Source of the DNA: Nitrospira sp.
GTDB taxonomy: Bacteria; Nitrospirota; Nitrospiria; Nitrospirales; Nitrospiraceae
Direction: 5' to 3'
Length of the DNA: 17,605 nt
Assembly: GCA_025361385.1 (NCBI GenBank)
Contig: JANYAJ010000301.1
Location: forward strand, 1-17,605
Position 1 is the stretch's first letter. Each line of letters begins with the position of its first letter. The notes beneath the pieces were generated by a model, which saw nothing but the letters and a program-made list of their open reading frames with translations, had not been told where the DNA came from and did not search any database. Shown piece after piece: positions 1,146 to 16,658 of this stretch. Both the position numbers and the translations under genes were made by a program.

Positions 1146-1189
1146 ATGTTACGCCTCTCGATCGAGAGGCGTCTGATCAATAGTGCTCA
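1146..1189 (-). promoter_or_regulatory. CRP-type box (1174-1189) and -10 (1146-1151) for the three-repeat exported protein
   Basis: The minus strand reads TGAGC-ACTATT-GATCA, then 22 bp, then TAACAT (4 of 6 to TATAAT). The expected start of transcription is near 1139, leaving an untranslated leader of about 144 nt before the start at 995. The spacer contains a perfect 22-bp palindrome (1151-1172), unlike the other boxes. Spacing is one base longer than the usual 21, so this is a weaker member of the set. Confidence 0.5.
1151..1172. repeat. Perfect 22-bp palindrome, possible terminator hairpin
   Basis: The sequence ACGCCTCTCGA is followed at once by its exact reverse complement. As RNA it could fold as a stem CGCCTCTC/GAGAGGCG with a GATC loop. 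It lies about 100 bp beyond the stop of the lipase gene, so it may end that run of minus-strand genes. No U-tract follows on either strand, so a rho-independent terminator is not clear-cut. A dyad operator is the other reading, since it lies between a CRP-type box and its -10. Confidence 0.45.
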
Positions 1190-1269
1190 GATGTGAGGGA
1201 TTGACTCAGCCTGAGAGGACGGGTGAAGTCTCTGTCTGGATGGAAACGTGAACAGGCGTGGAGCTCCAA

Positions 1270-2534
1270 CTATTGCGGCTGTGCTTGAAGAAAATCTGCG
1301 ATCCGGCGTCGACCCTCTCGGCCAGTCACTAACTCTATATGTCCCACCCGCAAGCGCTGAGTGGTGACATGGAAGGCATTTTCATAGGCCGCAGGCAGGG
1401 AGGCAGACTTCAGGGTGACCGACCCATCTCCATCCTCATTCACAATGTCCGGGTCGAGATTGGGAAGACGCGACTTGAATTGATCGCGGTCGAACAGGAC
1501 ATTGCCCTGGTCCTGTCCGGCCTCCTCCGGTATCCAGACTCCTCCCGCCAGCGTGCGCTGTCCCTCTGCAGCGAGAGAGAGGACAGGAATCGGTCGATCG
1601 TTCGGCGTGGCGAGGGGAGCATGGAGCCGATCCAGGAATCGTTGCGATCGATCCAGCCAGAAGGAGATATAGGTCTCGCGACGGTTGACGGTCTGGGTTG
1701 GCGCGGACCCTGTGTCCTTCAGCAAGCCCCATCCTTGGCCGCGCCAATTGGCCGCGGTACGAATTGCTCCTGCACTGGTTGTTGCGCAGGCGTCAGCAAG
1801 ACATCCGCCTCCAACAGCGGCAGCATATAGTAGGAGGCGGGAAACGACGCCATCGCCTGTTGATGCAAGATCGTGCGGTTGAAGCCGACCAGGCGTCCGT
1901 ACTGCATGTTGCGAAAGGCCCACATAGACCCCATGTACGGCATACCAGCCATGACGACCTTCTCGACGTGCCTCGCGCCTTCCCAAGTTTCAACGGCCTC
2001 GTCCGGCTCTTGATCGCCGTATCGAAGATAGTAACTGACGATTAAGCCGCCCATGCTATGGGCGACGAGCGCGATATGCGTCGTGCCTTCGGACTGGAGA
2101 CGCCCGATCTCCCTGCGCAAGAGCCGGACGGCGTCCATGAGATCCAGCCGCCAGTCGTAATTCAAGGAAGAGACCGACAGCTGTCCGTTGTGCAGCCGGC
2201 CCAGCTCATCGAGGAGAGGACGATACAACTCGAACGAGTAGAGCCAGGGGATCACCTTGACTTCATCGAGGATCCCGTCCGGACGGAGGGCCATCCCGTC
2301 GAGCTCCAGCTTGGGCAATGGCAGTGTCAGCGATTCGTCCCCTCCGAGGGCCTGCGATGCGGTGACCCAGAGGAGGTTCCCATTATCGACGCGCGCGAGC
2401 TTGGTCCCGTAATAGCCGGCCACCACGATGATGGCTTCGCCTGGCCTCAGCTTGGGGTCCACCTGAGTGGGCGGTATCTCGCAGGCCGTGAAGGCGAATA
2501 TGAAGAGAGAGGCGGCCGCGGCATGCCACGTCAT
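1270..2534 (-). pseudogene. LCAT-like alpha/beta-hydrolase lipoprotein (lipase/acyltransferase), frameshifted
   Basis: The first frame (2534 to about 1755) encodes a lipoprotein signal ending in the lipobox FTAC (Cys18). It then has the LCAT-family NYDWR motif (residues 125-129) and the nucleophile elbow AHSMGG with Ser160. It runs into an out-of-frame tail and stops at 1719. The homologous continuation (ANWRGQGWGLLKD) is in another frame and carries the acidic motif DGDGSV and the HIELVTG histidine motif near the C-terminus, ending at 1270. The two halves of the catalytic triad are therefore split by loss of one base (or gain of two) between about 1745 and 1775; repaired, the protein would be about 421 residues. 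Family role: hydrolysis or transfer of lipid acyl chains; outer-membrane or periplasmic anchoring is inferred. Either a real disabling mutation or a sequence error. It follows the PRC-barrel gene by 40 bp. Confidence 0.75.
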
Positions 2535-2574
2535 GGTATCTCAACCGATCAGGCTCTATTGTCGTATCCGCCCG

Positions 2575-3045
2575 TTATTTCTTGTGAGTCCCTTTTGGCT
2601 TGTCTGTCGCGCTCTTCCCATCTCCGGGGCTCTGCAAATCATAATACTCGTACACCGTCATGATCCATTCTTGATTCGACATGTCTGGCCACTGGTCTTT
2701 GGAGAACCCAGGAGCTTGTTTGAGGTCCTTCTTGCTCACGTCGAGGACAAGGTACTTCTGGTTCTCGCTTAACTGCATCGCCTCCCACGGTATGGCGAAG
2801 TATTTGTCACCGATTCCTAGGAATCCGCCGAAGTCCAGCACGACATATTCAATGTCTCCTTCCAGCGGGTCAATGACGAGGTCTTTGATGTCCCCAAGTT
2901 TTTTCCCTTCGGTATCTTGGACCTTGGCACCGATCAGGTTGCTGGCCTTCAGCACGCCGCTCTTGTCGCGCGCGGCGATCGATGGACTGAGGGTGAAGGT
3001 GGTACAGAGAGTCAGTACGGCAAACCCGATCCACAGCTTTCTCAT
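2575..3045 (-). CDS. Exported PRC-barrel domain protein
   Basis: A protein of 156 residues. ATGs occur at 3048 and 3045; the second is preferred because AGGAGG lies 6 nt before it and only 3 nt before the first. Residues 1 to about 25 form a signal peptide (LWIGFAVLTLCTTF, cut near SIAA). The next 90 residues match a PRC-barrel: LIGAKVQDTEGKKLGDIKDL, then IEYVVLDFGGFLGIGDKYFA and IPWEAM. The C-terminal tail is charged and Lys-rich. PRC-barrels are small adaptor folds found in photosynthetic reaction centre H subunits, RimM and many stress-induced proteins; the ligand here is unknown. It lies 66-70 bp after the peroxidase-like gene and 40 bp before the lipase, so it is probably part of the run that starts with the MlaC-like gene. 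Confidence 0.85.
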   Translation of the reverse strand: MRKLWIGFAVLTLCTTFTLSPSIAARDKSGVLKASNLIGAKVQDTEGKKLGDIKDLVIDPLEGDIEYVVLDFGGFLGIGDKYFAIPWEAMQLSENQKYLVLDVSKKDLKQAPGFSKDQWPDMSNQEWIMTVYEYYDLQSPGDGKSATDKPKGTHKK

Positions 3046-3114
3046 CATCTTCCTCCTTTTGAACAGTGTTCTTTCTTCACAGCCCCTATTTCAGGGGAAT
3101 GATCGCTCATGACA

Positions 3115-4518
3115 TTAGAGCACACGTAGAAACGCCACCAGATCCTGCTTCTCTCCCGACGTCAATTGAGTTCCCAACACCAGGTTGAAGAACTCCACGG
3201 CATCCTCTAACGTGAGTAACCGGCCATCGTGCAAATAGGGGGGCGAATCCTTGATGCCGCGCAAGGGAAAGGTCTTGATGGGGCCATCGGCGCTCGCCAT
3301 GCGCCCATTGATCATCCGCGGCTTGTAAAAACGCTCCACCTGTAAATTGTGCATGGAATTGTCCGTGTAATAGGGCGCCTGGTGGCAACTCGCGCATGTC
3401 GCTTTGCCGAAGAACAGATCCTGGCCTCGCTTCTCGGCTGCAGTCGCTTTCGTGGAATTCAATTTGCCATCAATGCCGAGTTTGGGGGCCGGGGGGAAGT
3501 CCAGGAGCTCCTGAAACTCTGCCATGAAATGTACCTGGCTGCCCCGCTCGAGAATGTTGACGCCTTTTTTGGCCGCGATGACGGGGTCGCCGTCGAAGTA
3601 GGCAGCGCGTTGTTCGAACTCCGTGAAATCCTCCACGCTCTTGAGCGCCCGTTGCGAGCCGAATAACCGCTGAATGTGTAAGCCGCGCAACGTTGGGGTA
3701 TCGAGTCGGTGGCGGAATTCCTGAGGGCGGACATCTCCCGCCAGATGGGTACTGGCATTCGTATGGCCGTTCGCATGACAGTCGAAGCAGGCCACGCCAC
3801 GGCTGGGACGCAGGGTGCGGCGATCTTCAGTCTGGTTGAACTGCTGCTGCGGGAATGAGGTGACGAGCAACCGCAAGCCCTCGAGCTGTTTCGGATTCAG
3901 AATCCCGTTGAAGAGCTCGTAATAGTTGTCGAGGGTTACCAATTTGCCGTGGGACAGGTCACCGAGATCCGTCCTGGTCGTAAGATAGATGGGTGCCGGA
4001 AATTCAGGTAAGAAATGGTCCGGCAGGTCAAACTCCAGGTCGAAGCGAGTGAGATCACGGCTCTCCTGCTTCTGAATCTCCTGGATATGGAATTTCGGGA
4101 AGATCATCCCCCCTTCAGGATGGTTGGGGTGAGGAAGAGGAAAGAATCCAGCCGGAAATGCATCCTTCTCCCGGATTTCTTCGGGTCTCATGGCCTGAAT
4201 TTTTTCCCAGGTGATCCCCTGAGGAAGTCTGACTCGTATCCCTTCCTGGACCGGCTTGCCCCGGGACATTGTAGCGTCTTTGGCCGGGCGATTCGCGAGG
4301 TCGTAGCGCTCGTTGAGCAGATCCATCTGCCGCTTCATGATCTCAGGCTTCGCGGCGCTCATGCGCGCAATGACGGCCGTCACGTCTTCCTTGAGATCGA
4401 CGGGCGCATAACTCGTCCCTCTCGGCGGTAACTCTTGAGCGGATGGAGCGCCGGTGGCGATGAGGACTGTCGCAAACATTCCCATTAGCACCCATTGCCG
4501 GTTCGGTTGATATGCCAT
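3115..4518 (-). CDS. Di-haem cytochrome c peroxidase/MauG-like exported protein
   Basis: A protein of 467 residues. The start at 4518 is chosen over 4647 because it begins with a signal peptide (MAYQPNRQWVLMGMFATVLI, cut near SAQ), has GAGAGGG upstream, and avoids overlap with the preceding gene. Two haem c sites are visible: CFDCH (244-248) and CASCH (375-379). The C-terminal PYLHDGRLLTLEDAVEFFN stretch (427-445) is characteristic of bacterial cytochrome c peroxidase and MauG proteins. Such enzymes use two c-haems to reduce peroxide or oxidise a protein or small molecule in the periplasm; the substrate is not evident here. The N-terminal 200 residues before the first haem are longer than in classical CcpA and lack an obvious third haem. 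It lies 70 bp after the MlaC-like gene and likely shares its promoter. Confidence 0.85.
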   Translation of the reverse strand: MAYQPNRQWVLMGMFATVLIATGAPSAQELPPRGTSYAPVDLKEDVTAVIARMSAAKPEIMKRQMDLLNERYDLANRPAKDATMSRGKPVQEGIRVRLPQGITWEKIQAMRPEEIREKDAFPAGFFPLPHPNHPEGGMIFPKFHIQEIQKQESRDLTRFDLEFDLPDHFLPEFPAPIYLTTRTDLGDLSHGKLVTLDNYYELFNGILNPKQLEGLRLLVTSFPQQQFNQTEDRRTLRPSRGVACFDCHANGHTNASTHLAGDVRPQEFRHRLDTPTLRGLHIQRLFGSQRALKSVEDFTEFEQRAAYFDGDPVIAAKKGVNILERGSQVHFMAEFQELLDFPPAPKLGIDGKLNSTKATAAEKRGQDLFFGKATCASCHQAPYYTDNSMHNLQVERFYKPRMINGRMASADGPIKTFPLRGIKDSPPYLHDGRLLTLEDAVEFFNLVLGTQLTSGEKQDLVAFLRVL

Positions 4519-4588
4519 GTGTACCCTCTCGTTGCGACCTGAGGAAAGAATGGCGATCGACACCTTCTGAGGACGAATGGCACATTCA

Positions 4589-5359
4589 TTAGGGAGCGTC
4601 GAGTGCAGGCGCCGACAACAGCGCGACGTCGGGAGCGGTCTTTTCAAATAACTTCACGGTGTGCGCCCTCTGCTTCATCTTCTCCACCAGTCCGGCATAA
4701 GAGTGGTCTCGGATAATGCGGCTGAACTGTGTCCGATAGTTCCTCACGATACTGGCGCGGTCAATGGCCACGTCGTACACGATCCACGCGCCGGACTGGT
4801 TCTCTAGCCGGAAGTCTAGCGAGGTATTTACTTTTGGACCGATCAAGTTGGTTCTCACCTCGGCAAAGCTGCCTTCACGTTGCTCGAAGAGATAAAAGAC
4901 CTGTTCGTCGTAATAGAGGTCGATATTGTTGGCAACCGCGTCTCGTATCAACTCAACGAAAAGACGGACAAATTCCTCCCGCTCCAGCCCGCTGAGTTTC
5001 GCCCAGGGAGCTCCCAGAGCGCGTTGGGCCATGTAGGTATAGTTCACGCGGTGTCTGATGACCTGCTCGATTTGTTGGCGGCGTTCCTCGGCGCGGCCGG
5101 GCTGCTTCAGGGTCTCGTTCCCCAGGATCGCGAGCACATCGAGGATTGAGCTTTTCACCGACTCGGTAGGGGAGTATTCGCTCGGCGCCACCCCTGTGGG
5201 TCCATTTACGATAGCTGCCATCGCCAGTTGTCGGCTCAGCCGATGATGGTTCGAGCTCTCGACGATTGTTGGCCCTTTGGAAGGCTCCATCGAGGCGCAA
5301 CCTGTGACTGCGGTAGCCATTCCGAAAGTAATGATCCAAGCCGCGAATTGTGAATGCAT
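4589..5359 (-). CDS. MlaC/Ttg2D-like lipoprotein
   Basis: A protein of 256 residues. The start at 5359 gives a clean lipoprotein signal with lipobox VTGC (Cys21) and has AGAGGT upstream; the longer reading from 5446 would add a signal-less extension crossing the promoter. The body resembles the MlaC/Ttg2D family (periplasmic phospholipid carrier): RRQQIEQVIRHRVNYTYMAQ, LGAPWAKLSGLEREEFVRLF, then the beta-sheet portion with VRTNLIGPKVNTSLDFRLEN and WIVYDVAIDRASIVRNYRTQF. Classical MlaC is soluble and coded with an Mla ABC transporter. Here no MlaD, E or F is nearby and the protein is lipid-anchored, so its partner is unknown. It is the first gene after a strong CRP-type box (5440-5455) and heads the run down to 1270. 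Confidence 0.8.
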   Translation of the reverse strand: MHSQFAAWIITFGMATAVTGCASMEPSKGPTIVESSNHHRLSRQLAMAAIVNGPTGVAPSEYSPTESVKSSILDVLAILGNETLKQPGRAEERRQQIEQVIRHRVNYTYMAQRALGAPWAKLSGLEREEFVRLFVELIRDAVANNIDLYYDEQVFYLFEQREGSFAEVRTNLIGPKVNTSLDFRLENQSGAWIVYDVAIDRASIVRNYRTQFSRIIRDHSYAGLVEKMKQRAHTVKLFEKTAPDVALLSAPALDAP

Positions 5360-5412
5360 GGCAGACCTCTGTGTTGGGTGGTTACCATCTGCGTGATTGC
5401 CGCCGTCCTCCA

Positions 5413-5455
5413 GCCTACGCTTTCCGAGGGGTGACAATCTGGTCAAAGTAGCTCA
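5413..5455 (-). promoter_or_regulatory. CRP-type box (5440-5455) and -10 (5413-5418) for the MlaC-like operon
   Basis: The minus strand reads TGAGC-TACTTT-GACCA, 21 bp, then TAGGCT. Predicted transcription start is about 5406, 47 bp before the ATG of the MlaC-like gene. The 21-bp spacing places the box centre at -41.5, as in class II CRP-activated promoters. There is no good -35 hexamer, as expected of an activator-dependent promoter. The assignment is pattern-based. Confidence 0.65.
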
Positions 5456-5525
5456 GGTTCGTGGATTGAGAGGGGACGAGGGAACGCAGGTTCGCTCTGC
5501 ACCGGCCGGAATCATTGAGAGAATG

Positions 5526-6261
5526 CTAGTCGTGGAGGACGACATTCAGGAGGGAGCTATGTATTTCCATTTTCCCCTTGTAGGTAATGAACCCCAGCTT
5601 TCTGAACTTATTCAGAAAGCCACTGACGCGGGACCGCGTGGTGCCGACCATCTCGGCGAGCGTCTCCTGGCTGATCTTCGGAATGACTGGCTCAGGCTTG
5701 CCTTCTTTCCCATAGTGGGCCAGCAAGAGGAGCGTTCGCGCCAGCCGCTTCTCAGCCGAATTGAAGAGATGATCGACTAAGTCCTCTTTGGGTGCGCATA
5801 TTGCGGGCCAGCAGATAAGACACAAACAGCTTCGCGAAGTCGGTCTCATCGCGTAAGACCTGAACCATGGCCGCCTTGTCGATGCGGACGATCTTGCTGG
5901 TATCTAACGCTGTGGCGGTCGCCATGCATAGGCGTTGTCCTACGAGGCAGCCTTCTCCAAAAAAATCTCCCGGAGACAGAATCGCGACGATGGCTTCTTT
6001 GCCCTGCGGCGAGAGGACCGAGAGCTTTACCCGGCCCGTCTTGAGATAGAATACGGCAGTGGCCGCATCTCCTTGCGAAAAGATCAGGTGCTTTTGCGGG
6101 GCCTGTACCGTCGTTTTACCCTGGCCATTTGTCGCAAGGTAGGTCTGGGGGTTGAATGGGCCGACAGGTTGTTTGGCTGCAGGCTTCTTTCCATTCCTGT
6201 CAGGAATGAGTCCGACAGTAGGAGCAATTTTTGCCGACAATCGTGTCCGGATTTTTTTCAT
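5526..6261 (-). pseudogene. CRP/FNR-family transcription regulator with a 1-nt frameshift
   Basis: The N-terminal frame (6261 leftwards) encodes a cyclic-nucleotide-binding-type domain with IFSQGDAATAVFYLKTGRVK, ILSPGDFFGEGCLVG and the dimer helix up to LLARNMR. The homologous continuation EDLVDHLFNSAEKRLARTL and the winged helix (ISQETLAEMVGTTRSRVSGF, ending LLNVVLHD) lie in the next frame, ending at 5526. One extra base in the TTTGGG run at 5787-5792 explains the break; repaired length is 244 residues. The Arg-Ser pair that binds cAMP phosphate in E. coli CRP is absent (MATATA instead), and there is no FNR-type cysteine set, so the signal is not cAMP or an FNR cluster by sequence. In the recognition helix, CRP's R-E-x3-R pattern becomes R-S-x3-G. 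A matching box sits in its own promoter, suggesting autoregulation. The frameshift may be a sequencing error in a homopolymer. Confidence 0.8.
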
Positions 6262-6302
6262 GCGTGTCCACGTCCTCTAGCGGTCCTTGTTGGCAGCTCC
6301 CC

Positions 6303-6345
6303 TCAATACCAGTTCCACCCTGTATCGTCTGGTCAGAATTGCTCA
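6303..6345 (-). promoter_or_regulatory. CRP-type box (6330-6345) and -10 (6303-6308) for the CRP/FNR regulator gene
   Basis: The minus strand reads TGAGC-AATTCT-GACCA, 21 bp, then TATTGA. Predicted start of transcription is about 6296, 35 bp before the regulator ATG at 6261. This box is among the closest to the consensus and continues upstream as CGAAC-TGAGC, like those at 9298 and 11504. Its place before the only DNA-binding regulator gene in the window is the main reason to link regulator and boxes. The rest of the 6262-6502 gap holds no gene I can support. Confidence 0.65.
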
Positions 6346-6502
6346 GTTCGGTAGAGCGGAGCCAGGCTGCTTGGCTCTGCTCCTGCGCAATGACTATGGA
6401 AAGTTGCCTGTGCATTACCAGGATCGCCATGAATGAGGCCGCTCGCCAGAACTTGTTCGTCAAGATGCTGCCGCGTGATGGCCCGGTGCTGCTTCATACC
6501 AG

Positions 6503-7384
6503 CTACCGCTCGGGCGAGGGAGTCGGTTCCGCTTCAGGGTTCGTCGACAGACGGGGGCTCACAAGTTCTATGCGCAGGATCGGTCCCATGAGTTGCAAGG
6601 GCCCTTCGAATTGCACGAAGCTCGGCACCTCATCGGCCAGGACCCAACAGTCATAGTGGAAATTGGCCGGGAGCTTGCCGATGACCTTTCCGATGAACTT
6701 CCGAATCGTTCCCATATCCGGTTTGAAGGCGTAGTGCCGAGCCGTACGGGACAGGTCTCCCACCTGGACGGTACGCTCCCCCATGAGACGCAGGTCCAGT
6801 TTGATGATTTCTGGGCCGGGCGTGAAGGCGAGAAGATGCACCGTGTCGCTGGCGCCTTTCGGCAGGTTCAGCAGCATTGTGACAAGCATGCCGTTGTAGA
6901 CATCTTTCGGCAGGACAAACTTTCCGGTCAGTATCCGTTCGGGTGCATCTCCTCCCAGCTTGGATCGAACCTTGTAATCTCCCGTGCCCCGGTCTACCGA
7001 CACGTCGACTTGCTCTGGAAACGACGGACCTTGCTGGACCAGGTGGTAACGAATCATCGTAAAGACATCTTGTTGGGAGAAGGCGACTTTCTCATCGTGC
7101 AGAGAGCCGTCTTTGAAACGGAATACCAGCCGGCTCTCGACGAGCTCACCTTCTTTGACGACTTGAGTCATCTCCCCCTGGCCAAGGGTCTCTCCGGTAA
7201 GCGACCGCACGAGAAGGAACCCATGTGTCACGCCTTCGGAAAGCCGCACCGCGACAGGAGCGGCATCGACGGGGGAGGACAGGAATGCGGCGAGCGAGAT
7301 GATGATCGCGAGGCAGGCAGAGGCCTCGCGATGGCTCGTCCACGTTTTCCGACAACCCGACATGGGGCAGGCTGAAGGTTTCAT
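6503..7384 (-). CDS. Exported protein of unknown function, coupled to the AI-2E permease
   Basis: A protein of 293 residues. Its ATG overlaps the TGA of the upstream permease gene in an ATGA junction, so translation is probably coupled. There is no strong Shine-Dalgarno, which fits. Residues 1 to about 41 look like an n-region plus signal peptide (ACLAIIISLAAFLSSPVDA). The mature part is rich in beta strands and includes GQGEMTQVVKEGELVESRLV, FRFKDGSLHDEKVAFSQQ and ADEVPSFVQFEGPL; it has two cysteines outside the signal region at most and no metal or nucleotide motif that I can see. The general pattern recalls DUF3108-like periplasmic proteins, but that is a weak resemblance. Being co-transcribed with a permease suggests an envelope role. 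A Pro/Glu-rich tail ends the protein. Confidence 0.7.
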   Translation of the reverse strand: MKPSACPMSGCRKTWTSHREASACLAIIISLAAFLSSPVDAAPVAVRLSEGVTHGFLLVRSLTGETLGQGEMTQVVKEGELVESRLVFRFKDGSLHDEKVAFSQQDVFTMIRYHLVQQGPSFPEQVDVSVDRGTGDYKVRSKLGGDAPERILTGKFVLPKDVYNGMLVTMLLNLPKGASDTVHLLAFTPGPEIIKLDLRLMGERTVQVGDLSRTARHYAFKPDMGTIRKFIGKVIGKLPANFHYDCWVLADEVPSFVQFEGPLQLMGPILRIELVSPRLSTNPEAEPTPSPER

Positions 7385-8589
7385 TTTCTCAGCATTTCAG
7401 CCAAGGGCTGGAATTCCTTTATATGCTCGGAGATCACCTTCACAATGCCGAGGATGGGAATTCCAAGCAGCAGACCCCATGCCCCCCAAAGCCATCCCCA
7501 GAAGAGCAATGCGATAAATATTGCCACGGCATTCATGTTCGTAACCTTCCCCGTCATCCAGGTGACGACGAATGTGCCGACGAAGGTGGCAATGGCCAGC
7601 GAGCTGACTGACACCAATAGGGCCATCCAGAAAGAGCCGAATTGCATGAAGGCCGCCATTCCCGTAAAAACCGCGGTCAATGCGGGACCTAGATAAGGAA
7701 TGACATGGAGGATTCCTGCCGCCATCGCCCATCCGCCGGCATTGTCCAACCCGATTCCGTAGAACGTGATCCAGGTCAGCAGTGCCAGGAGCACGTTGGC
7801 CGCCAACAGCGTGAACATGTAGTTCTGGATTGAGCGATTGATGTCGTCCAGGATACGCACTGTGATTTTCTTGTCGGAGAGCGACGGTCCGGCCAAGCGC
7901 ACCAGCTTAGGTTTAAACGTGTCGCCGGACAGTAAGAGAAAGAAGACCAAAATGAGCACCATCATCGCTTCACTGATGAATCCGAGTGCACCCATGGAAC
8001 CTGCCATCAACAAGTCACCCAGCTTTAACTTAGGCTGATCTATAACGATATGCGTCGCCGCTTGTTTATCCGTAGCCTGGCTGGTGGCCTGTTCGATCTC
8101 GCGGGCAGCGGCTTGAACTTTCTGCACCGTGTTGGCCCGTCCCCGGGCCAGGCTACGGAGGGTACTGGATAATTTGCTCGCTGCGGCAGGCACTTGATCG
8201 AGGATGGACTCTATCTGATCGCGTAGCGGAATCGTCAACAAGGCGCTTCCGCACAGCACGGACAGCATCACCATGCTGGCACCCACCATCCGGGGGATCT
8301 TTATCCGTTCCAGCCAAGCCACGAGGGGATGGAGGGTATAGGCAATGAATATTCCGAGCAGGAGCGGTACGAAAAACTTTTCCGCCCATTGCAGCGCAAA
8401 TGCCACGACGACTGCCGTCACAAGGGTCATTGCCAGACCTCGAACGTCTATCGACACGCGGGCGGTAGGATGAGCAGGGTCCGGCAGCGACGCCATGTCG
8501 ATGGGAAGGCATCTTCCGGCTGGACCGTCCGGCAGGGGCCGCGGTTCAGGCATCACGTCTGCAGCAGCATTCACGGCGAGCACGTTCAT
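7381..8589 (-). CDS. AI-2E family transporter (PF01594-type permease)
   Basis: A protein of 402 residues, somewhat longer than the usual 340-380 because of a soluble N-terminal tail of about 50 residues. Membrane segments follow: a first pair (about 52-90), one near GASMVMLSVLCGSALLTIPL, then a soluble insert of about 80 residues, then SEAMMVLILVFFLLLSG and a C-terminal cluster. Family signatures are visible: VIPYLGPALTA and FWGWLWGAWGLLLGIPILG. AI-2E family members are homotrimer or pentamer inner-membrane proteins linked to export of AI-2 or to Na+/H+ exchange; the family name does not prove AI-2 transport. AAGGA lies 9 nt upstream of the ATG at 8589. The gene is first after a CRP-type box at 8690 and overlaps the next gene by 4 nt. 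Confidence 0.88.
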   Translation of the reverse strand: MNVLAVNAAADVMPEPRPLPDGPAGRCLPIDMASLPDPAHPTARVSIDVRGLAMTLVTAVVVAFALQWAEKFFVPLLLGIFIAYTLHPLVAWLERIKIPRMVGASMVMLSVLCGSALLTIPLRDQIESILDQVPAAASKLSSTLRSLARGRANTVQKVQAAAREIEQATSQATDKQAATHIVIDQPKLKLGDLLMAGSMGALGFISEAMMVLILVFFLLLSGDTFKPKLVRLAGPSLSDKKITVRILDDINRSIQNYMFTLLAANVLLALLTWITFYGIGLDNAGGWAMAAGILHVIPYLGPALTAVFTGMAAFMQFGSFWMALLVSVSSLAIATFVGTFVVTWMTGKVTNMNAVAIFIALLFWGWLWGAWGLLLGIPILGIVKVISEHIKEFQPLAEMLRK

Positions 8590-8662: not shown

Positions 8663-8705
8663 ATTGTGCGCGGATGATCGAGGAAGGTCCGGTCAAAAGT
8701 GCTCA
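8663..8705 (-). promoter_or_regulatory. CRP-type box (8690-8705) and -10 (8663-8668) for the AI-2E permease unit
   Basis: The minus strand reads TGAGC-ACTTTT-GACCG, 21 bp, then CACAAT (4 of 6 to consensus). Predicted start of transcription is about 8656, giving a leader of about 67 nt to the ATG at 8589. An ATG at 8706 overlaps the first base of the box; a short frame from it (34 codons, to 8602) has no Shine-Dalgarno and would start upstream of the predicted transcript, so it is not called as a gene. Confidence 0.6.
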
Positions 8706-8790: not shown

Positions 8791-9228
8791 CTAATTCACG
8801 CGGCTGGCCGAGAGGGATGGGGCGATCGGGGCAGAGGGTGCCGGAGTTCTGATGAGACGAGGCCTGGGCACCGCCAATCGTTGGAACCTGTTTCGGCCGT
8901 TCCTGGGTTTCGTGTCGTGGCTTAGCGTTGCCGCTCGCGCGGTCCGGAGACCATGGGCTAGAATCGGTTCGCCTTGATGGGGTTTCGGCTCTGCAGGCTC
9001 CCAGAGGTCCACGTGCGAGCCAGATATTTCAAAGTGCTCGTGGGCATTGAAGACCCGCTTGACGTCCTCGCAACGGGCCATGTGCACGATCCCGAGGCCG
9101 AGGGCATAGCCGCACTCGTCCTTCAGCACCTGCGCCAGCACGACTGTCCCAAACGGGAGGAAGGCCTGACGGAGTTTGTCATCGGTGCAAAAGCAGGACA
9201 GCCCACTGACATGGATATTGGTACTCAT
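8791..9228 (-). CDS. RRM-domain RNA-binding protein with a basic Pro-rich tail
   Basis: A protein of 145 residues. The start at 9228 is preferred to 9258 because GAGGGA lies 6 nt upstream and the protein then opens at the RRM. The RRM covers about residues 3-77: RNP2 is IHVSGL (5-10), and the RNP1 position holds CGYALGLGIVHM (39-50), which departs from the usual KGFGFV pattern by an insertion-like GLG. The tail (80-145) is rich in Arg, Pro and Ala and ends in APSAPIAPSLSASR. Bacterial single-RRM proteins are often induced by cold or other stress and bind single-stranded RNA; the target here is unknown. The gene has its own CRP-type box and CATACT -10 immediately upstream. Confidence 0.82.
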   Translation of the reverse strand: MSTNIHVSGLSCFCTDDKLRQAFLPFGTVVLAQVLKDECGYALGLGIVHMARCEDVKRVFNAHEHFEISGSHVDLWEPAEPKPHQGEPILAHGLRTARAATLSHDTKPRNGRNRFQRLAVPRPRLIRTPAPSAPIAPSLSASRVN

Positions 9229-9271
9229 GTTGAATCCCTCTGGTGAGAAACAGGGCATTAGGTATCACGAA

Positions 9272-9313
9272 AGTATGCGTGGATGACCACCGGACGTTGG
9301 CCACCATGGCTCA
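9272..9313 (-). promoter_or_regulatory. CRP-type box (9298-9313) and -10 (9272-9277) for the RRM gene
   Basis: The minus strand reads TGAGC-CATGGT-GGCCA, 20 bp, then CATACT, identical to the -10 elements at 11477 and 16356. Predicted start of transcription is about 9265, 37 bp before the ATG at 9228. The box continues upstream as CAAAC-TGAGC, also seen at 11504. Its GACCA half is the least perfect of the set (GGCCA), and it overlaps one arm of a 13-bp inverted repeat. Confidence 0.55.
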
Positions 9314-10022: not shown

Positions 10023-10117
10023 TTCCTTCTCATTCGATCCAGGGTTGGTCAGGGATCGTCTCATCCCAGTGACGCGCCTCGTGCTCTCTTCTCGGGGTAG
10101 CCTGTGCCCCCTCACGT

Positions 10118-10609: not shown

Positions 10610-10676
10610 GGATTATTCCCTCTGGTCGAACATAGAGTTCGAGGTTGTCGCACGGGACGATACCCGCATGCCCTTG

Positions 10677-10934: not shown

Positions 10935-11071
10935 AGGTCCTCCTTCTACTGTCTCTCAATAATGAAACTCCCCTAAATGTGAAGTTCGACCAGCCGTAGT
11001 GCTTTCTCGTGAGACGGAAAGACGTCTGCCGAACCTCTGGCGCCGGTGCTGTGGAGATCTTCAGCCGCCTC

Positions 11072-11182: not shown

Positions 11183-11217
11183 AGCATCCTCCTCCTGTTA
11201 CAGGCTGTGCCGTCTCC

Positions 11218-11430
11218 TCAGGCGACAGGTTGTTCGCACAGAGGCGAACTCATCAGGGGTTGCTCCCACGCTACATATTCGACCAGGGATTGAGTACAGG
11301 TCTGGCACAAGTGCGGCCCCAGATTGTTCAAGGTCCGAGACACCTCTACATCCGATGAACCGCATTCACTGCAGAGGGTCAGGCCAATGCGGGGAGAGTC
11401 TTGCGGTACCCGGGCTACTCGACAGATCAT
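11218..11430 (-). CDS. Small zinc-ribbon-type protein (70 aa)
   Basis: The start at 11430 is preferred to 11472 because AAGGAGG lies 7 nt upstream of it, and because 11472 is almost at the predicted transcription start (about 11470). Two CxxC knuckles stand out: Cys20/Cys23 (LCSECGSS) and Cys42/Cys45 (LCQTC), the spacing of a zinc ribbon. The segment between reads DVEVSRTLNNLGPH. The C-terminal tail is acidic/hydrophobic (EYVAWEQPLM). No catalytic motif is present. It is the first gene after a CRP-type box with a CATACT -10, followed 35 bp later by the 36-residue membrane microprotein. Confidence 0.75.
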   Translation of the reverse strand: MICRVARVPQDSPRIGLTLCSECGSSDVEVSRTLNNLGPHLCQTCTQSLVEYVAWEQPLMSSPLCEQPVA

Positions 11431-11476
11431 GATCTCGCCTCCTTCTGCTCTCAGATAGATGGGGAGCGTCAATGAG

Positions 11477-11519
11477 AGTATGACTTGAAGGTAGAGGGGA
11501 GTCTGGTCACAATTGCACA
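11477..11519 (-). promoter_or_regulatory. CRP-type box (11504-11519) and -10 (11477-11482) for the zinc-ribbon/microprotein unit
   Basis: The minus strand reads TGTGC-AATTGT-GACCA, 21 bp, then CATACT. Predicted transcription start is about 11470, 40 bp before the ATG at 11430. The bases upstream (CCCAAAC) match those of the box at 9298. One base of the TGAGC half differs (TGTGC), bringing it nearer to the classical CRP half site TGTGA. Confidence 0.65.
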
Positions 11520-11614
11520 GTTTGGGAAATCAATACCAAAGTCACTTAGGATGGAATGACCGAGGTGGCTGGTGGGGCTCGTTGTCAGAGTGTTTTTCGT
11601 TGTGGCAGGAGGGG

Positions 11615-12088: not shown

Positions 12089-12120
12089 GTGACACCTCCG
12101 ATGAACTCAGTGAGTCTCAG

Positions 12121-14763
12121 TTACTGCCTGAGGCGCGTGATCATTCCCGTCGTCGCATCCAAGGTGAGGCGCTCACCGTCCTTCAGGAGGTGCGTGACGC
12201 CAAAGACATTGGCAATGGCGGGGAGGCCGTACTCGCGGGCGATGATCGCTCCGTGGGACAATGTGCCGCCCATCTCCACGATGAGCCCGGCTGCGAGCCC
12301 CATGAGCGGCGCGATGCCTGGATCAATCACCGATGCCACCAGGATATCTCCCCGCTTCACTTTCTTGAGATCGTCAGGAGCTCGCACCAGACAGGCAGGC
12401 CCTTCGGCATAGCCGGCGCTGATGGGGAGACCTCGAAGCGAACCATCGGCACTGCCGATGTCGTCAACGAGTCGTTCGTCGTCTCCGATGACGGTATCCG
12501 GAACGTCTTGCGCGGCATGACAGGCCCACTCCTTGCGACGCCTGTTCACCAGGCCCTTCCAGTCGCCCGCTGAGTCGGATGTGGCCGCCGTGATCTCACC
12601 GAGCCTCAGAAAGAAAATATCGTCTCTTGATTGTAAGAGGCCACGCGCCGCCAATGTGCCTCCGACGCTCATCGCGATGAGCCGAGCCGCGGCGATGAAC
12701 TGCATCAGGGCATGTCGGTTGGCTTCTCGTAATTCCAGATAACGGCAGAGTCGTCGGTGCCACCAGCTCCACACCGCCCATTCATGCCAGCGCCAGCCGA
12801 ACCCGCCGCGGAGCCGCCGCAGTGCCTCCTGTCTGGCGGACGCTTGCTCACGGCGAATCTCGTCGGCGGGCCTCGTCGGCGGGATCAGCAGATGCCCCCT
12901 GATGACTCCGAGGACGTACACAGGAATCTCCGCGAAGCGCGGCGACATGACGTCGGATTCGCCGACCGCTCGGTGTCCGTATTCCGATAGATAGGCGTCG
13001 AAGGATCGAAGAAAATGCGTGCCGCCCAGTGTGGCGCGGAACGGCTCGGGCCTCCAAGGTTCTGCCAGCAGAAAGTCACGAACCACCGGCTCGCGTCCGG
13101 CCGCTTCGGCCAGTTCCGTTAATAGGAGAATTTGTTTGGCGCTGATGATCGTCCCAACTCCCTGCAACGTCTGATTCAGGATCGATTGCCACGCGGCTCC
13201 CAGCCGCCGTTCGAGGAGCAGTTTCATCACATAGAATCCCTGAGACACTCCGCTGAAGATTGCGAAGGTCAAGTCTCCGTTCACGAGAAGGTGCCGGCTC
13301 AACTCTTCTTTCCAGGCCGATAGCTCGACCGCCGTGAGCTCTTGTATTGGGTTGTTCCTACATCGCGCCCCTAGCCGTCGCATCTCCTGGAACCACGTGG
13401 GGGCTCGCCTGGCTGCATGCCGGATCTTCCATTCCATGAGGATGGCGACCCTCCACCAGGGAAGCTGTGTCACCGTGCGCGGGGTTGGAGACGCTCCACC
13501 ACCCATCTGTTCGGCAAGAAGGGTTGGGTCGCCTCCCAGTTGCGCCATGACAGACTGAAACAGGGTCACGTTGATGAAGGGACGGCCTCGGATCACTCTG
13601 ACCGACGAACATCCAAGCGGGATGCGGCATCCCAACTCGCGGTAGCAGCCCACGATGTGGGTCTCCATAAATCCATCCAGGAGCGAGAGGCCGAGGGGGC
13701 TCGGCAATTCTGGCAGGGTTTCCTTGAAGTTTGCCCGTGACCAGACGATCGGCGCGGAGTCTTGCCACGTGTCTCGACCGGGAATCGGCCTGGCCTGCAA
13801 GAGCCAGAGCCCCTGTGCATCGCTCGCCCATTCGACATCCACGGGTGTCCCGACCGCGCACTCGACCTTTTTCACCAGCCTTGCCAGGGCGAGCACTTCC
13901 CGCTCCTCCAGTACGGATCTTCTCTGATCCCGTTCGGGTACAGGCTGATCTGTCAGACCCCACGGCATGGCGAGCCTGACCTTCGTCTTCTCGGCAATGT
14001 CTTGCTGGATCAGTACCGGGGAGGCCGGATCGTTCCCGACCTCCACGACGTATTGATCTGGCCTCGTCAGGCCGCTCACCAGCGGTTCGGCCAGTCCGAA
14101 CACGGCATTGATCATGATCTGGTCGGTCCGGCCCGAGATGGGATGCCGGGAGTAGGCGACTCCGGCCGCACGTGGAGCGAGGAGCGGCTGGAGGATGACC
14201 GCCATGGCGGGAAAGAGACGGGATGTCGGCAGACGTTCCCGATAGGTAAAGGCAAAGGCTGTCCACTGCGAAGCCCAACAGTCGAGGATCGCCGCTGCGA
14301 TTGAGCGGCACGGCACTCCCAAAACCGTACGATAAATGCCTGCACAGGTCGCGTCTGCCGCGTCTTCATCAGAGGCGGACGATCGCACCGCCCACAGCAT
14401 GCTACCGGTCGATTCGTTCTCCGTCGCGAACTCTTTCTCCAGCTTGGCAAGTTGTGCGTCAATCGTGTCGAGCAGGGCTCGAGATAGTACCAGAGTCGAG
14501 ATCGTGTTTCGACAATCCTTCAGCAACGGCTCACGTTGTACCGCCGGCGTGCGCCCGATACGATTCCAGCGCTCTAAGAGGTTCAGCCCGCCCGCTTGCA
14601 ACGTGTCACGATAGGCCTGAGTCGTGATACAGAGGCCAGGAGGAACCAGGAATTCCTGTGCGATGAGCCGGGCGAGCCCCGCGGCTTTACCGCCGGCAAG
14701 CGCCGGATCGGTACATGATTCCAACGGGAGGATCAGCGGTGAGGACAGGACAGATCGTGTGAT
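12121..14763 (-). CDS. PEP-synthase-like dikinase (ATP-grasp plus swivelling His domain), similar in layout to rifampicin phosphotransferase
   Basis: The N-terminal third is a PPDK-type ATP-grasp: AGGKAAGLARLI, WAVRSSASDEDAADATCAGI, QPLLAPRAAGVAYSRHP, VDVEWASDAQGLWLLQARPI. A central substrate-type domain of about 450 residues follows, and a C-terminal phosphohistidine domain with TLSHGAIIAREYGLPAIANV, whose His would carry the phosphate (44 residues from the end). The PEP-binding TIM barrel of true PEP synthase is missing. The same order is found in rifampicin phosphotransferase (ATP, substrate, His domains), but its drug-binding residues cannot be checked here, so the substrate is open. The start is unclear: TTG at 14724 gives 867 residues but lacks a ribosome site. 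Homology-like sequence extends upstream to an ATC at 14763, 6 nt after GAGG, giving 880 residues; that would be a rare start or a base error for ATG. Confidence 0.78.
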   Translation of the reverse strand: MTRSVLSSPLILPLESCTDPALAGGKAAGLARLIAQEFLVPPGLCITTQAYRDTLQAGGLNLLERWNRIGRTPAVQREPLLKDCRNTISTLVLSRALLDTIDAQLAKLEKEFATENESTGSMLWAVRSSASDEDAADATCAGIYRTVLGVPCRSIAAAILDCWASQWTAFAFTYRERLPTSRLFPAMAVILQPLLAPRAAGVAYSRHPISGRTDQIMINAVFGLAEPLVSGLTRPDQYVVEVGNDPASPVLIQQDIAEKTKVRLAMPWGLTDQPVPERDQRRSVLEEREVLALARLVKKVECAVGTPVDVEWASDAQGLWLLQARPIPGRDTWQDSAPIVWSRANFKETLPELPSPLGLSLLDGFMETHIVGCYRELGCRIPLGCSSVRVIRGRPFINVTLFQSVMAQLGGDPTLLAEQMGGGASPTPRTVTQLPWWRVAILMEWKIRHAARRAPTWFQEMRRLGARCRNNPIQELTAVELSAWKEELSRHLLVNGDLTFAIFSGVSQGFYVMKLLLERRLGAAWQSILNQTLQGVGTIISAKQILLLTELAEAAGREPVVRDFLLAEPWRPEPFRATLGGTHFLRSFDAYLSEYGHRAVGESDVMSPRFAEIPVYVLGVIRGHLLIPPTRPADEIRREQASARQEALRRLRGGFGWRWHEWAVWSWWHRRLCRYLELREANRHALMQFIAAARLIAMSVGGTLAARGLLQSRDDIFFLRLGEITAATSDSAGDWKGLVNRRRKEWACHAAQDVPDTVIGDDERLVDDIGSADGSLRGLPISAGYAEGPACLVRAPDDLKKVKRGDILVASVIDPGIAPLMGLAAGLIVEMGGTLSHGAIIAREYGLPAIANVFGVTHLLKDGERLTLDATTGMITRLRQ

Positions 14764-14847
14764 GGTGAACCTCGCTTCAGTAGTGGAACGTACCGATGGA
14801 CCCCTGACATCGCCCGCACGATTTCACCCGTGCAGGGTGCGTTGTGG

Positions 14848-15543
14848 TTAGCCCGCCGCGACGGAAGAGGATGCTTCAGTCTGGAGCGCGCCTTCTTTTC
14901 GTTGTACGGCGGGATGCAGCCACCCCGGCACATACCGCCCGACATCGGAAGCCCAGGCCGTCGCATCTTCCTCAATGGATGTAAACAGATCGCCCAGCGT
15001 GGCGACCATCTCGTGCGTCAACGTGAGATATTCCTGTCCGCGATCCCGGAGGGCTTCCGGCGAGGTCACTCCGGCTGCGAACATCCGTTCCAGCGTGCGG
15101 CACCCGAATCCGTGGTGCGCTTCTTCTTGTTGCAACAGCATGCGCCGCATGCGCTCGAAGGGAGCGTTGCGTTTCGCCAGTCCTTCTTCGATGCGTTCGA
15201 GGATCGCCTGACCGAGCCCTTCGAGAATGATTTGTTCCGCCATCAGGGTTTCGGCAAAGTCTCCCCGTCCGATGGCCTCTTCGATCAAGGTGCGATACCG
15301 TTCCATCGGCGGCAGCAAGGGGCCGGTGCCCAAGTGGCGTGGGGCCAGCCAGGCGATGGCCCCTTGAAACACGAATGCATGATAGGCCTCTTGTCGGGAC
15401 TGATTGAGGAGGAACCGGCGCATGCCAGGGTCCGGCATGAGCTTCGCCTGCGCCTTGGCACAGTCGCTAGCGAGATATTCCCCATCTCGAAGAAATTGGA
15501 GAAGACGGGCGGTCGGCGCTTTCTGGTCTGGATGAATGAACAT
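14848..15543 (-). CDS. Ferritin-like di-iron protein
   Basis: A 231-residue, almost wholly helical protein; AGGGAG lies 5 nt before the ATG at 15543. Likely metal ligands follow the ferritin-like four-helix pattern: Glu22 (GEYLASD), Glu52-x2-His55 (RQEAYH), Glu103 (MAEQIILEGL) and Glu141-x2-His144 (QQEEAHHG). This two-ExxH arrangement binds two irons in oxygenases, oxidases and ferritin relatives. Whether it hydroxylates a substrate or stores iron cannot be told from sequence; the length (above the 150-170 of ferritins) favours an oxygenase-like enzyme. The C-terminal 30 residues are not conserved-looking. The gene is first after a CRP-type box and is followed 84 bp later by the dikinase gene, with which it may act. 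Confidence 0.75.
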   Translation of the reverse strand: MFIHPDQKAPTARLLQFLRDGEYLASDCAKAQAKLMPDPGMRRFLLNQSRQEAYHAFVFQGAIAWLAPRHLGTGPLLPPMERYRTLIEEAIGRGDFAETLMAEQIILEGLGQAILERIEEGLAKRNAPFERMRRMLLQQEEAHHGFGCRTLERMFAAGVTSPEALRDRGQEYLTLTHEMVATLGDLFTSIEEDATAWASDVGRYVPGWLHPAVQRKEGALQTEASSSVAAG

Positions 15544-15632
15544 GTCGGCTCCCTTCGAGGCGTGAAGATCAAGTTAGGACGGGACGGCGGTGTGCATGTG
15601 GCATTTCGAGACAACGTCGGGCAGCTGCTGAG

Positions 15633-15675
15633 AGTCTGTCAGCAATACAGAGCCTGATCTGGTCAAAATTGCTCA
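15633..15675 (-). promoter_or_regulatory. CRP-type box (15660-15675) and -10 (15633-15638) for the di-iron/dikinase/CarS-like operon
   Basis: The minus strand reads TGAGC-AATTTT-GACCA, which I take as the consensus, 21 bp, then CAGACT. Predicted transcription start is about 15626, 83 bp before the ATG at 15543. The -10 is weaker than the CATACT of other sites, sharing 3 of 6 with TATAAT. Confidence 0.6.
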
Positions 15676-15739
15676 ACTCGAAAGAGTCGACTGGGCCTGC
15701 AGGGATATGATCTGGTGCCGAAGAAGAGGCTTGGAATGA

Positions 15740-16246
15740 TTACACGCGGAGCAACTCCTCAGATCTCGTTTGTCCGACATTCGGGTGGCTGGCCAGAGGC
15801 AGGTGAGAGCCCGGTGACCATGCGAGGGAACTTAGATAACGGGTAAAGTCGAGAAATTGCTGTTCCTCTGGCGCTAACGAGAGGGTGTAACTGTTGTTCC
15901 CTGACAATAGAGCCCATTCGGTAGCATGTTTCGCAAGCGCATTGGCATCGAGTCTATAGGTTTGGCACCTCGTGATCGACCTGGCTGGCAGCAGGACTGT
16001 GATGGTTGAGAGATAGGGCTCATAGGTCAGCACATACTGATGCGCATACTGAAATACGAGTTGAACCCCACCGGCAGCGACCATGCCGAGATGGCTACAA
16101 GCGGGACAGCGGAAGTATAGAAGACCGTTCGCGGGATCGAACTCCTCAGTATTTCGCCTTGTCACTTGTTGCATTTTTTCGTGGCACAGACCCATGGGGG
16201 AGCTTGGAGGACCCATGACTGTGGCCGGGCAACGCAATTCTTTCAT
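15740..16246 (-). CDS. Hypothetical protein with a CxxC pair (168 aa)
   Basis: The start at 16246 is preferred to 16465 because GGGAG lies 8 nt upstream and the longer form would run across the promoter at 16356. A CPAC knuckle (Cys47/Cys50) in FRCPACSHLGMV, with Cys6 (RCPAT) and Cys21 (LCHEK) before it, suggests a zinc-binding head. The remainder is a mixed alpha/beta region (VQLVFQYAHQYVLTYEPYLS, then SLAPEEQQFLDFTRYLSSLA) with no motif that I recognise. No signal peptide or membrane helix. It is a single gene with its own CRP-type box. Function unknown. Confidence 0.65.
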   Translation of the reverse strand: MKELRCPATVMGPPSSPMGLCHEKMQQVTRRNTEEFDPANGLLYFRCPACSHLGMVAAGGVQLVFQYAHQYVLTYEPYLSTITVLLPARSITRCQTYRLDANALAKHATEWALLSGNNSYTLSLAPEEQQFLDFTRYLSSLAWSPGSHLPLASHPNVGQTRSEELLRV

Positions 16247-16355
16247 CGATGCACTCCCTCGTTGTCGACAGAAATCGCGGTGGCAACTTCTCAGCCTTGA
16301 TAGCACCCACCGCCTTTTGCTGGACAGATATGACAGATAGCGAGTTCCGGTTGTC

Positions 16356-16398
16356 AGTATGCCAAGAAAGCAGATTGGCGTCTGTTCAAAATAGATCA
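16356..16398 (-). promoter_or_regulatory. CRP-type box (16383-16398) and -10 (16356-16361) for the 168-aa hypothetical gene
   Basis: The minus strand reads TGATC-TATTTT-GAACA, 21 bp, then CATACT, the same hexamer as at 9272 and 11477. Predicted transcription start is about 16349, 103 bp before the ATG at 16246. The box is among the more diverged, but spacing and hexamer are exact. Between this site and the plus-strand box at 16616 (16399-16615) I see no gene or repeat. Confidence 0.6.
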
Positions 16399-16615
16399 GG
16401 ATGGAACCTCGATCAGGAAGTTGCACGACCAGACATGTCGCAATACCTCCAACCCAATCTTTCACGGCTAGACAGGGAGCATGAGGAGGGTTTCATTCCG
16501 GTAGGTCTCGAGTAGTCAGAATAAACGTGCGCAGGTCACAAATGATCTCAGGACAGAATAGAGACAGCCTCTATCGCAGACTTGCTTGACCCCTGAATGT
16601 CGGGACGTCGTATTG

Positions 16616-16658
16616 TGAGCAATAGTGAACAGACGATAAAGGAAGTGGTTGATAAATT
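16616..16658 (+). promoter_or_regulatory. CRP-type box (16616-16631) and -10 (16653-16658) for the DUF3309/BON pair
   Basis: The plus strand reads TGAGC-AATAGT-GAACA, 21 bp, then TAAATT (4 of 6 to consensus). Predicted transcription start is about 16665, 57 bp before the GTG at 16722. This is the only unit of the set on the plus strand, and its box has flipped with it, which argues for function. The 17 bp ATTGTGAGCAATAGTGA here recur beside the IS at the left edge. Confidence 0.65.

Follow-up and report, generated by a model that had tools for sequence, protein, structure and literature searches.

A CRP-like promoter box repeated across a Nitrospira contig, and the regulator subfamily that probably reads it

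Introduction

The DNA considered here (the window, i.e., the whole stretch of 17,605 nucleotides) is contig JANYAJ010000301.1, or C481, of a Nitrospira sp. genome of 3.05 Mb (GCA_025361385.1), which is divided into 562 contigs and is 82% complete. It carries eight strong copies of one pseudo-palindromic promoter box, one of which precedes the gene of a CRP/FNR-family regulator, and these boxes are best explained, at a probability of roughly 0.85, as the operator sites of a single uncharacterised subfamily of such regulators, arranged as in class II CRP promoters. The evidence comes from the form of the site, its spacing and orientation, the autoregulatory position of one box, and the co-occurrence and adjacency of regulator and box across related genomes.

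The Box and Its Promoter

A preliminary description of the window had reported nine 16-mers as copies of one box, and all nine are present at the positions and on the strands that it gave; eight of them are strong copies, and the ninth, at 9298, stands at chance level. The bare 10-letter consensus, with up to two mismatches, occurs 22 times in the window against 20.4 expected, which is no excess, and the case therefore rests on a fuller site. Alignment of the flanks revealed that the 16-mer belongs to a more extended element, C, TGAGCA-ATTT-TGACCA and then GAC, and the refined promoter, read in the sense of the gene, consists of an A/T tract, CTGAGCAATTTTGACCAGAC and an extended −10 of the form [TC]AtaaT, usually 21 bp past the 16-bp box. 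Under a 23-bp matrix trained on 81 sites, all of them outside the window, the eight boxes score between 23.1 and 33.8 bits and are the top eight matches in the window, scores that were never reached in 3 Mb of first-order random, window-like sequence. The boxes are as follows:

1174 to 1189, minus strand: box TGAGCACTATTGATCA, 30.3 bits, with a −10-like TAACAT at gap 22
5440 to 5455, minus strand: box TGAGCTACTTTGACCA, 28.2 bits, 3' of the regulator gene and before an MlaC/HpnM-like gene
6330 to 6345, minus strand: box TGAGCAATTCTGACCA, 33.8 bits, before the regulator gene itself
8690 to 8705, minus strand: box TGAGCACTTTTGACCG, 23.1 bits, before the AI-2E transporter gene
9298 to 9313, minus strand: degenerate box TGAGCCATGGTGGCCA, 2.3 bits, before the RRM gene
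11504 to 11519, minus strand: box TGTGCAATTGTGACCA, 30.1 bits, with CATACT at gap 21
15660 to 15675, minus strand: box TGAGCAATTTTGACCA, 30.1 bits; the same gene family lies behind a box at L123:4722
16383 to 16398, minus strand: box TGATCTATTTTGAACA, 25.7 bits, with CATACT at gap 21
16616 to 16631, plus strand: box TGAGCAATAGTGAACA, 25.9 bits, before the DUF3309 and BON genes
136 to 151, minus strand: a tenth box with its 3' part replaced, 9.8 bits, followed by a transposase-like reading frame

The tenth box lies near the end of the contig, where positions 1 to 138 hold the transposase-like frame (named by eye), the upstream region of which cuts the box. Positions 139 to 298 (160 bases) match contig C117 at 97% identity, and on C117 the tenth box is intact and continues to TGAACAGA.

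The preliminary description had placed the −10 at 21 bp from the box in seven cases, with 20 and 22 bp in the other two. The strict form [TC]ANNNT is found at gap 21 for five boxes only (8690, 11504, 15660, 16383 and 16616); the gap is 20 at 9298, a gap of 22 applies to both 1174 and 5440, and box 6330 has no strict [TC]ANNNT, with TATTGA standing at gap 21. The exact CATACT reported at 9272, 11477 and 16356 is correct in all three places. The −10 hexamers are:

1146 to 1151, minus strand: TAACAT, gap 22 from box 1174
5412 to 5417, minus strand: TAGGCT, gap 22 from box 5440
8663 to 8668, minus strand: CACAAT of box 8690
9272 to 9277, minus strand: CATACT, gap 20 from box 9298
11477 to 11482, minus strand: CATACT of box 11504
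15633 to 15638, minus strand: CAGACT of box 15660
16356 to 16361, minus strand: CATACT of box 16383
16653 to 16658, plus strand: TAAATT of box 16616

The same spacing is found well beyond the window. In a test of 89 sites, mostly from relatives and oriented by the asymmetry of the box alone, 55 have [TC]ANNNT at gap 21 and 13 at gap 22, with 0 to 7 for each of the other gaps from 8 to 39, and on the mirror side it is found at gap 21 in a single site and never in more than 8 at any gap. Among 71 gene-oriented, non-redundant sites, the columns that directly follow the box are G17 (99%), A18 (70%) and C19 (61%), and those around the −10, at positions 38 to 43, include G36 (65%), A39 (73%) and T43 (76%). 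These downstream columns may be read as a −35 remnant, xxGACx, a 17-bp spacer and an extended −10, with the centre of the box at −41.5. From the −10 at box positions 38 to 43, the regulator site would thus be centred at −41.5, and this value emerges both from the 71 gene-oriented sites and from the 89 oriented independently of genes, in agreement with the class II spacing previously proposed. Upstream, the A/T-rich columns at −12 to −6 would fit a UP-like element at about −62 to −56 of the promoter.

With regard to orientation, the earlier statement that it always follows the gene is valid for all of the boxes in the window and is too strong in general, given that box asymmetry and the nearest called gene point the same way in 56 of the 66 sites where both can be decided. 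Agreement with the flanks is found in 84 of 91 decidable sites, a figure that is partly circular, as the flank matrix was trained on sites with gene and asymmetry in accord; the 89-site gap test avoids this problem.

Sites in the Rest of the Genome and in Relatives

When the whole genome was searched with the 18-mer TGAGCWNTWKTGACCAGA, 42 matches were found with up to three mismatches, against 19 for the reversed control, and 21 with up to two, i.e., the eight in the window and 13 elsewhere. These 13 have [TC]ANNNT at gap 21 in nine cases, at gap 22 and not 21 in three, and at neither in one. One of the 13, C128:674, lies inside the start of a coding sequence and was taken as false. A chlorite-dismutase-family gene of this genome (L023:519-1334) is preceded by a box with CATAAT as the −10 at gap 21.

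The sample of relatives comprises 20 stretches from eleven related genomes, of which 13 were chosen for box clusters, six for the surroundings of regulator genes and one as a control, and the density of sites in it is therefore selected for; the 20-kb control stretch, from G006, holds no site. A codon-scored gene caller placed 14 of the 106 sites inside called open reading frames (ORFs), some of them doubtful, in DNA that is 75% coding, so that the predicted avoidance of coding DNA is borne out. A longest-ORF mask, which put 47 of the 106 in genes, was wrong because it kept antisense frames. Six of the 106 sites (five under 15 bits, and L121:12737) were left out of the later analyses. The expected recurrence before similar genes was also observed, with boxes preceding the same gene families in several genomes, and three members of the genus, G031, G013 and G030, contain 36, 21 and 20 boxes, respectively.

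The Regulator and Its Association with the Box

A regulator gene that the preliminary description had passed over lies at 5526 to 6261, behind box 6330 and ahead of box 5440, in two overlapping frames:

5752 to 6261, minus strand: N-terminal piece, with a cyclic-nucleotide-binding-type domain (PF00027, E=1.4e-20)
5526 to 5849, minus strand: C-terminal piece in another frame, with a Crp-type helix-turn-helix (PF13545, E=5.9e-13)

The genome has five matches to the cyclic-nucleotide-binding domain, and the intact close paralogue is a single 240-amino-acid frame on contig C207, to whose residues 30-158 and 154-238 the two pieces align. The C207 protein, which was used as the query in the searches for the subfamily, matches PF00027 and aligns with solved CRP/FNR proteins over residues 53-222, and its listed relatives carry both PF00027 and PF13545, a domain content that places the predicted regulator in the two-domain CRP/FNR family. 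The break in the window copy lies near 5779-5789, and the copy on G031:C40 is broken at the same codon stretch. Such a frameshift may represent recent decay, an assembly error or a programmed shift. Between the window and G031, the two pieces have ratios of nonsynonymous to synonymous change (dN/dS) of 0.24 and 0.16, and look as if under purifying selection.

The CRP/FNR-family reading of the box, as first suggested, is supported by the fact that a regulator of this kind is found in the window, tracks the box over 235 genomes and often adjoins it. A sample of 61 genomes, and then 235 genomes of the order, was scored for the regulator (present at E<=1e-25), and boxes in the order were counted with the pattern TGAGCWNTWKTGANCAGA, allowing up to one mismatch; in both sets, the number of boxes goes with the presence of the regulator. 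The 66 regulator-positive genomes have a mean of 7.1 boxes, with at least one in 65, against a mean of 0.48 in the 169 negative genomes. Six or more boxes are found in 29 of the 66 positive and none of the 169 negative genomes, and ten or more in 15 and none. This contrast is kept in five genera taken separately, and 0 of 20000 permutations of the labels within genera reach the observed count. G190, the one regulator-positive genome in which no box was found, encodes a protein with 44% identity.

Adjacency was assessed in 34 regulator loci, one per genome, further matches existing beyond these. In 24 of them, the regulator gene has a box no more than 600 bp away, on the 3' side in 22, and 15 of those are 57-92 bp past the stop codon. 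Other CRP-type loci of these genomes have a box within 600 bp in 0 of 10 cases, an eleventh control locus having given no alignment. G019, G033 and G053 each yielded a single box, which directly follows the regulator gene.

The C207-type regulator reaches no curated cut-off of the NCBIfam models for CRP, FNR, FixK, NtcA, FtrB, LdrP and PtrA, its scores being 47.9 bits against a cut-off of 266 for CRP, 39.5 against 228 for FNR, 33.3 against 300 for FixK, and 48 against 244.95 for NtcA. In an alignment of 13 distinct members, one of them acidobacterial (with L116, L119, L110 and L111 left out), the recognition helix is close to TTRSRVSFFMNxF, and Cys101 is shared by 12 of the 13. The Arg-Thr pair with which Rv3676 of M. 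tuberculosis contacts cyclic AMP (cAMP) corresponds to Tyr-Met in the C207 protein; across the 13 members, the first position is Arg in seven, and the second is Met, Leu or Pro in all 13 and Ser/Thr in none. Given these residues, ordinary cAMP control of the subfamily appears doubtful.

Symmetry of the Half-Sites

An early iterative matrix had counted every site on both strands, which gave it a perfect symmetry, and the asymmetry was therefore judged on oriented sites. Among 95 of these, the inner bases of the left half are AG in 84, and those of the right half are A and then C, A or T in 82. The outer pair C0/G17 and the core pair A7/T10 agree as an inverted repeat in 64% and 54% of the sites, against 20% and 9% as a direct repeat. 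TGAGCA...TGCTCA palindromes occur in three of the 95 (L116:6658, L127:7788 and L131:4344). Five of the 95 boxes are flipped, all of them before one duplicated gene family and with the −10 still in place; in L121, L125 and L126, the duplicated genes (120-154 amino acids) have the flipped box with the −10 near the usual distance. The most economical reading would be a dimer site with relaxed inner bases.

Two other explanations of the motif were dropped. A heterodimer of two paralogues is not needed for the asymmetry, since G094 has one detected copy of the regulator and 11 asymmetric boxes, and a sigma54 promoter on the other strand (TGG...TTGC) does not fit the sigma54 consensus in either spacing or orientation.

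Proposed Mechanism and Alternative Explanations

In the proposed mechanism, a homodimer of the regulator would bind CTGAGCA-N4-TGACCAG, a pseudo-palindrome with two asymmetric inner bases, centred at −41.5, and would activate rather than repress the gene behind it in answer to some signal. The bound dimer would touch the RNA polymerase in the manner of CRP at class II promoters, and this contact would replace a poor −35, of which only the GAC is kept, 17 bp from the extended −10, with the upstream A/T tract as a possible seat of the alpha C-terminal domain. As the window regulator gene (5526 to 6261) lies under its own box, the layout would be autoregulatory.

A number of observations weigh against this account. 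Box 9298 reaches 2.3 bits, a level at which about 2.2 sites are expected by chance, and, given the frameshift in the window regulator, the active protein in this genome would have to come from C207 or from some other copy. The inner two bases are poor as an inverted repeat (16% and 8% of the 95 sites), and as a direct repeat one of them agrees in 86% and the other in 7%. The asymmetry of the box disagrees with the nearest gene in 10 of 66 sites, some of which have doubtful gene calls. Ten of the 34 regulator loci have no box inside 600 bp, five regulator-negative genomes (G007, G012, G134, G159 and G177) have 4-5 boxes, and 32 of 52 regulator-positive genomes of an Acidobacteria-type sample (see below) have no exact box. 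Two of the five, G007 and G177, are 99-100% complete, with five boxes each and no regulator of the subfamily detected. Finally, promoters are duplicated in several islands and shared between related genomes, so that the sites are not fully independent.

Some of these points would suit another regulator, for example a response regulator of the OmpR/PhoB type, that reads the box head-to-tail as TGANCA-N4-TGANCA at a pitch of 10 bp, in which case the CRP-family genes would be no more than passengers of the same islands. Positions 3 and 13 do agree as a direct repeat in 86% of the 95 sites, the five regulator-negative genomes keep their 4-5 boxes, and the window contains a receiver-domain gene, and on C40 a box is followed by the gene of a PAS histidine kinase. 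On the other hand, positions 4 and 14 agree as a direct repeat in 7%, C0/G17 and A7/T10 are better inverted (64% and 54% against 20% and 9%), and the duplicated gene family has its box flipped with the −10 still in place; it is also the CRP-family subfamily that tracks the box, other CRP-type loci having no adjoining one, and the centre at −41.5 is the class II CRP position, all of which makes a response regulator improbable. A CRP-family protein that binds the box and mainly represses is somewhat less probable again: some members of the family are repressors, as is reported for RedB (PMC9603854), yet the centring at −41.5, the degraded −35 and the kept −10 form an activator layout. Operators of repressors usually overlap the core promoter.

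The fixed distance to the −10 and the TTGAC inside the box could also point to a −35-type element of an alternative sigma factor, and 23 of 32 genomes of the genus possess a sigma factor that reaches 319-334 bits under the RpoS model, the cut-off of which is 378.7. The distance from the end of TTGACC to the −10, however, is 22 bp, more than a sigma70-type −35 would allow, the GAC behind the box being the one at 17 bp; the box is pseudo-palindromic over about 18 bp; and none of the 32 genomes, with box counts from 0 to 36, reaches the RpoS cut-off (TIGR02394), so that this origin of the box is very unlikely. Hardly any weight falls on the idea that the boxes are copies of one duplicated promoter, spread with the islands and devoid of regulatory meaning; near-identical repeats do exist in some islands (L121 and L125), but the box, spacing and −10 are retained in 98 non-identical promoter sequences, many with unrelated flanks, and before 37 gene sequence clusters in two far-apart groups of genomes.

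Predicted Target Genes

A called gene lies downstream of 86 of 99 oriented sites, at a median distance of 107 bp, and these genes form 37 single-linkage clusters. In the window, the genes behind the boxes are:

4589 to 5359, minus strand: MlaC/HpnM-like target, with the start from the gene call (PF05494, 2.2e-36, over the longer frame 4589-5446)
3115 to 4518, minus strand: MauG/di-haem peroxidase-like gene, downstream of the MlaC-like gene (TIGR03791, 5e-12, far under the cut-off)
2575 to 3048, minus strand: PRC-barrel gene (PF05239, 1.1e-19), possibly part of the same transcription unit
7381 to 8589, minus strand: AI-2E family transporter, target (PF01594, 3.5e-48)
8791 to 9258, minus strand: RRM protein, possible target (PF00076, 4.5e-06)
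11218 to 11430, minus strand: 70-amino-acid protein, target, no Pfam match (longer frame 11218-11472)
14848 to 15543, minus strand: 231-amino-acid protein, target, called di-iron in the preliminary description, no Pfam match
15740 to 16246, minus strand: 168-amino-acid protein, target, no Pfam match (longer frame)
16722 to 16874, plus strand: DUF3309-type small membrane protein, target, which clusters with L116:19410-19562 (PF11752, 1.3e-23)
16936 to 17244, plus strand: BON-domain gene (PF04972, 5.9e-18), possibly in the DUF3309 unit

No recognisable small gene was found in the frames behind box 1174. The window also encodes, at 12121-14724 and with no box directly ahead, an 867-amino-acid protein resembling phosphoenolpyruvate (PEP) synthase, with PPDK_N and PEP-utiliser domains, under the named cut-offs.

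Several of these families recur behind boxes elsewhere. Strong boxes precede similar RRM genes in two relatives (L119:9532 and L123:11369), the AI-2E family is found behind boxes in L120 and L123 and DUF3309 genes in L116 and L124, and the boxes at L121:12686 and L125:8181 are each followed directly by a MauG-like gene. Counted as sites, with the window included where present and families named from scans of representatives, the repeated pairs of box and gene are CsbD-like (10), the 120-154-amino-acid family with flipped boxes (7, in three loci), a 117-amino-acid lipoprotein-like family (5), the regulator itself (5, window included), MlaC/HpnM-like (4, window included), a ketoacyl-synthase cluster (4, one a short frame), DUF1328 (4), DUF3309, AI-2E, a GH94-type giant gene and a 91-amino-acid protein (3 each), and RRM, MauG-like and the 231-amino-acid protein of 14848-15543 (2 each). 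The largest gene cluster was rejected as a single MauG-like family, given that ten of its members are CsbD-like and two MauG-like, chained together with one bridging frame. Further targets include PRC-barrel, ferritin-like and DUF5670 proteins and a pyruvate-oxidase-like thiamine-pyrophosphate enzyme, under the named cut-offs where these are shown, and the genome of the window itself has CsbD, PRC-barrel, PAS histidine kinase, chlorite-dismutase-family, TPR and DUF1207 proteins behind boxes. The names of the targets (CsbD, BON, PRC-barrel, DUF3309, DUF1328, MlaC/HpnM and ferritin-like) suggest a stress or envelope response.

A Second Group of Genomes

The regulator is also found, at 56-61% identity, in loci titled 'Terriglobia bacterium' and 'Acidobacteria bacterium ... 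gp1', and in a metagenome-assembled genome (MAG) titled 'Bacillota bacterium', and each of these three genomes has an exact match to the 18-mer; the subfamily may also occur in Pseudomonadota. A second sample of 100 genomes, made up of an Acidobacteria genome and its relatives, yielded 35 exact boxes and no match to the reversed control. With the regulator called at E<=1e-40, the exact box is present in 20 of 52 positive against 2 of 48 negative genomes (Fisher p=2.4e-5). Six of the 35 boxes lie within 300 bp of a regulator match and 18 within 15 kb, and of the 31 boxes that fall in the loci examined, 12 have [TC]ANNNT at gap 21 and nine at gap 22.

In the Bacillota-labelled MAG, the stretch L158:6-1518 has a box and, behind it in an operon-like arrangement, STAS and HATPase genes (for switch proteins of the RsbV/RsbW type) and a partial gene of the CRP-family regulator, a row hinting that partner switching may feed into the regulator. 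All of the 8000 subfamily candidates that were scored have E<=1e-20, and a single genome has as many as six regulator matches (G260). A tentative extension, held with rather less than even confidence, is that this huge unnamed subfamily may be a portable stress system of Nitrospirota and Acidobacteria, with regulator copies inside islands of stress genes whose promoters all carry the asymmetric box, the islands being gained and lost ready-wired and replacing the stress regulons of sigma factors.

Relation to Known Systems and Implications

The closest likeness is to the class II promoters of E. coli CRP, which share the 16-bp pseudo-dyad, an outer TG in each half-site, the centre at −41.5, the weak −35 and the upstream A/T tract, and whose regulator belongs to the same two-domain family (PF00027 and PF13545). 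The inner bases of the half-site, in contrast, differ from the TGTGA of CRP, and the 47.9 bits of the present regulator are far from the CRP equivalog cut-off of 266. FNR, FixK, NtcA, FtrB, LdrP and PtrA also belong to the CRP/FNR family, and the regulator is far under their NCBIfam cut-offs; their half-sites differ from that of the box.

RedB of Rhodobacter capsulatus represents a widespread and previously unstudied CRP/FNR subgroup with a non-palindromic site (PMC9603854). Compared by description only, it differs from the present system, the RedB site being a 12-bp A/T-rich motif and RedB an energy brake (PMC9603854). For a Nitrospira genome, NnrR and FNR-like regulators, likewise CRP/FNR homologues, were predicted with matrices from known regulators, and the accessible portion of that article describes no box like the present one (PMC8510549).

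The general stress regulons of RpoS, SigB and EcfG have overlapping kinds of targets (CsbD, DUF1328 and pyruvate-oxidase-like proteins), and differ in that the promoter here would be read through a CRP-type box rather than a sigma-specific one. DUF1328 is also mentioned in a paper on RpoS (PMC5437024). Searches of open-licence literature turned up no published description of the box, or of the targets of the subfamily. By its sequence features, the system would be a regulon of a known sort (CRP/FNR family, class II layout) with a new site and a new regulator clade.

A very common and apparently uncharacterised CRP/FNR subfamily gains a predicted DNA target, a promoter layout and a list of target genes. 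These provide a handle on how Nitrospira-type nitrifiers and soil Acidobacteria, both of ecological importance and difficult to cultivate, may turn on genes for stress and the envelope, through a regulon that can be read from the metagenomes of both groups.

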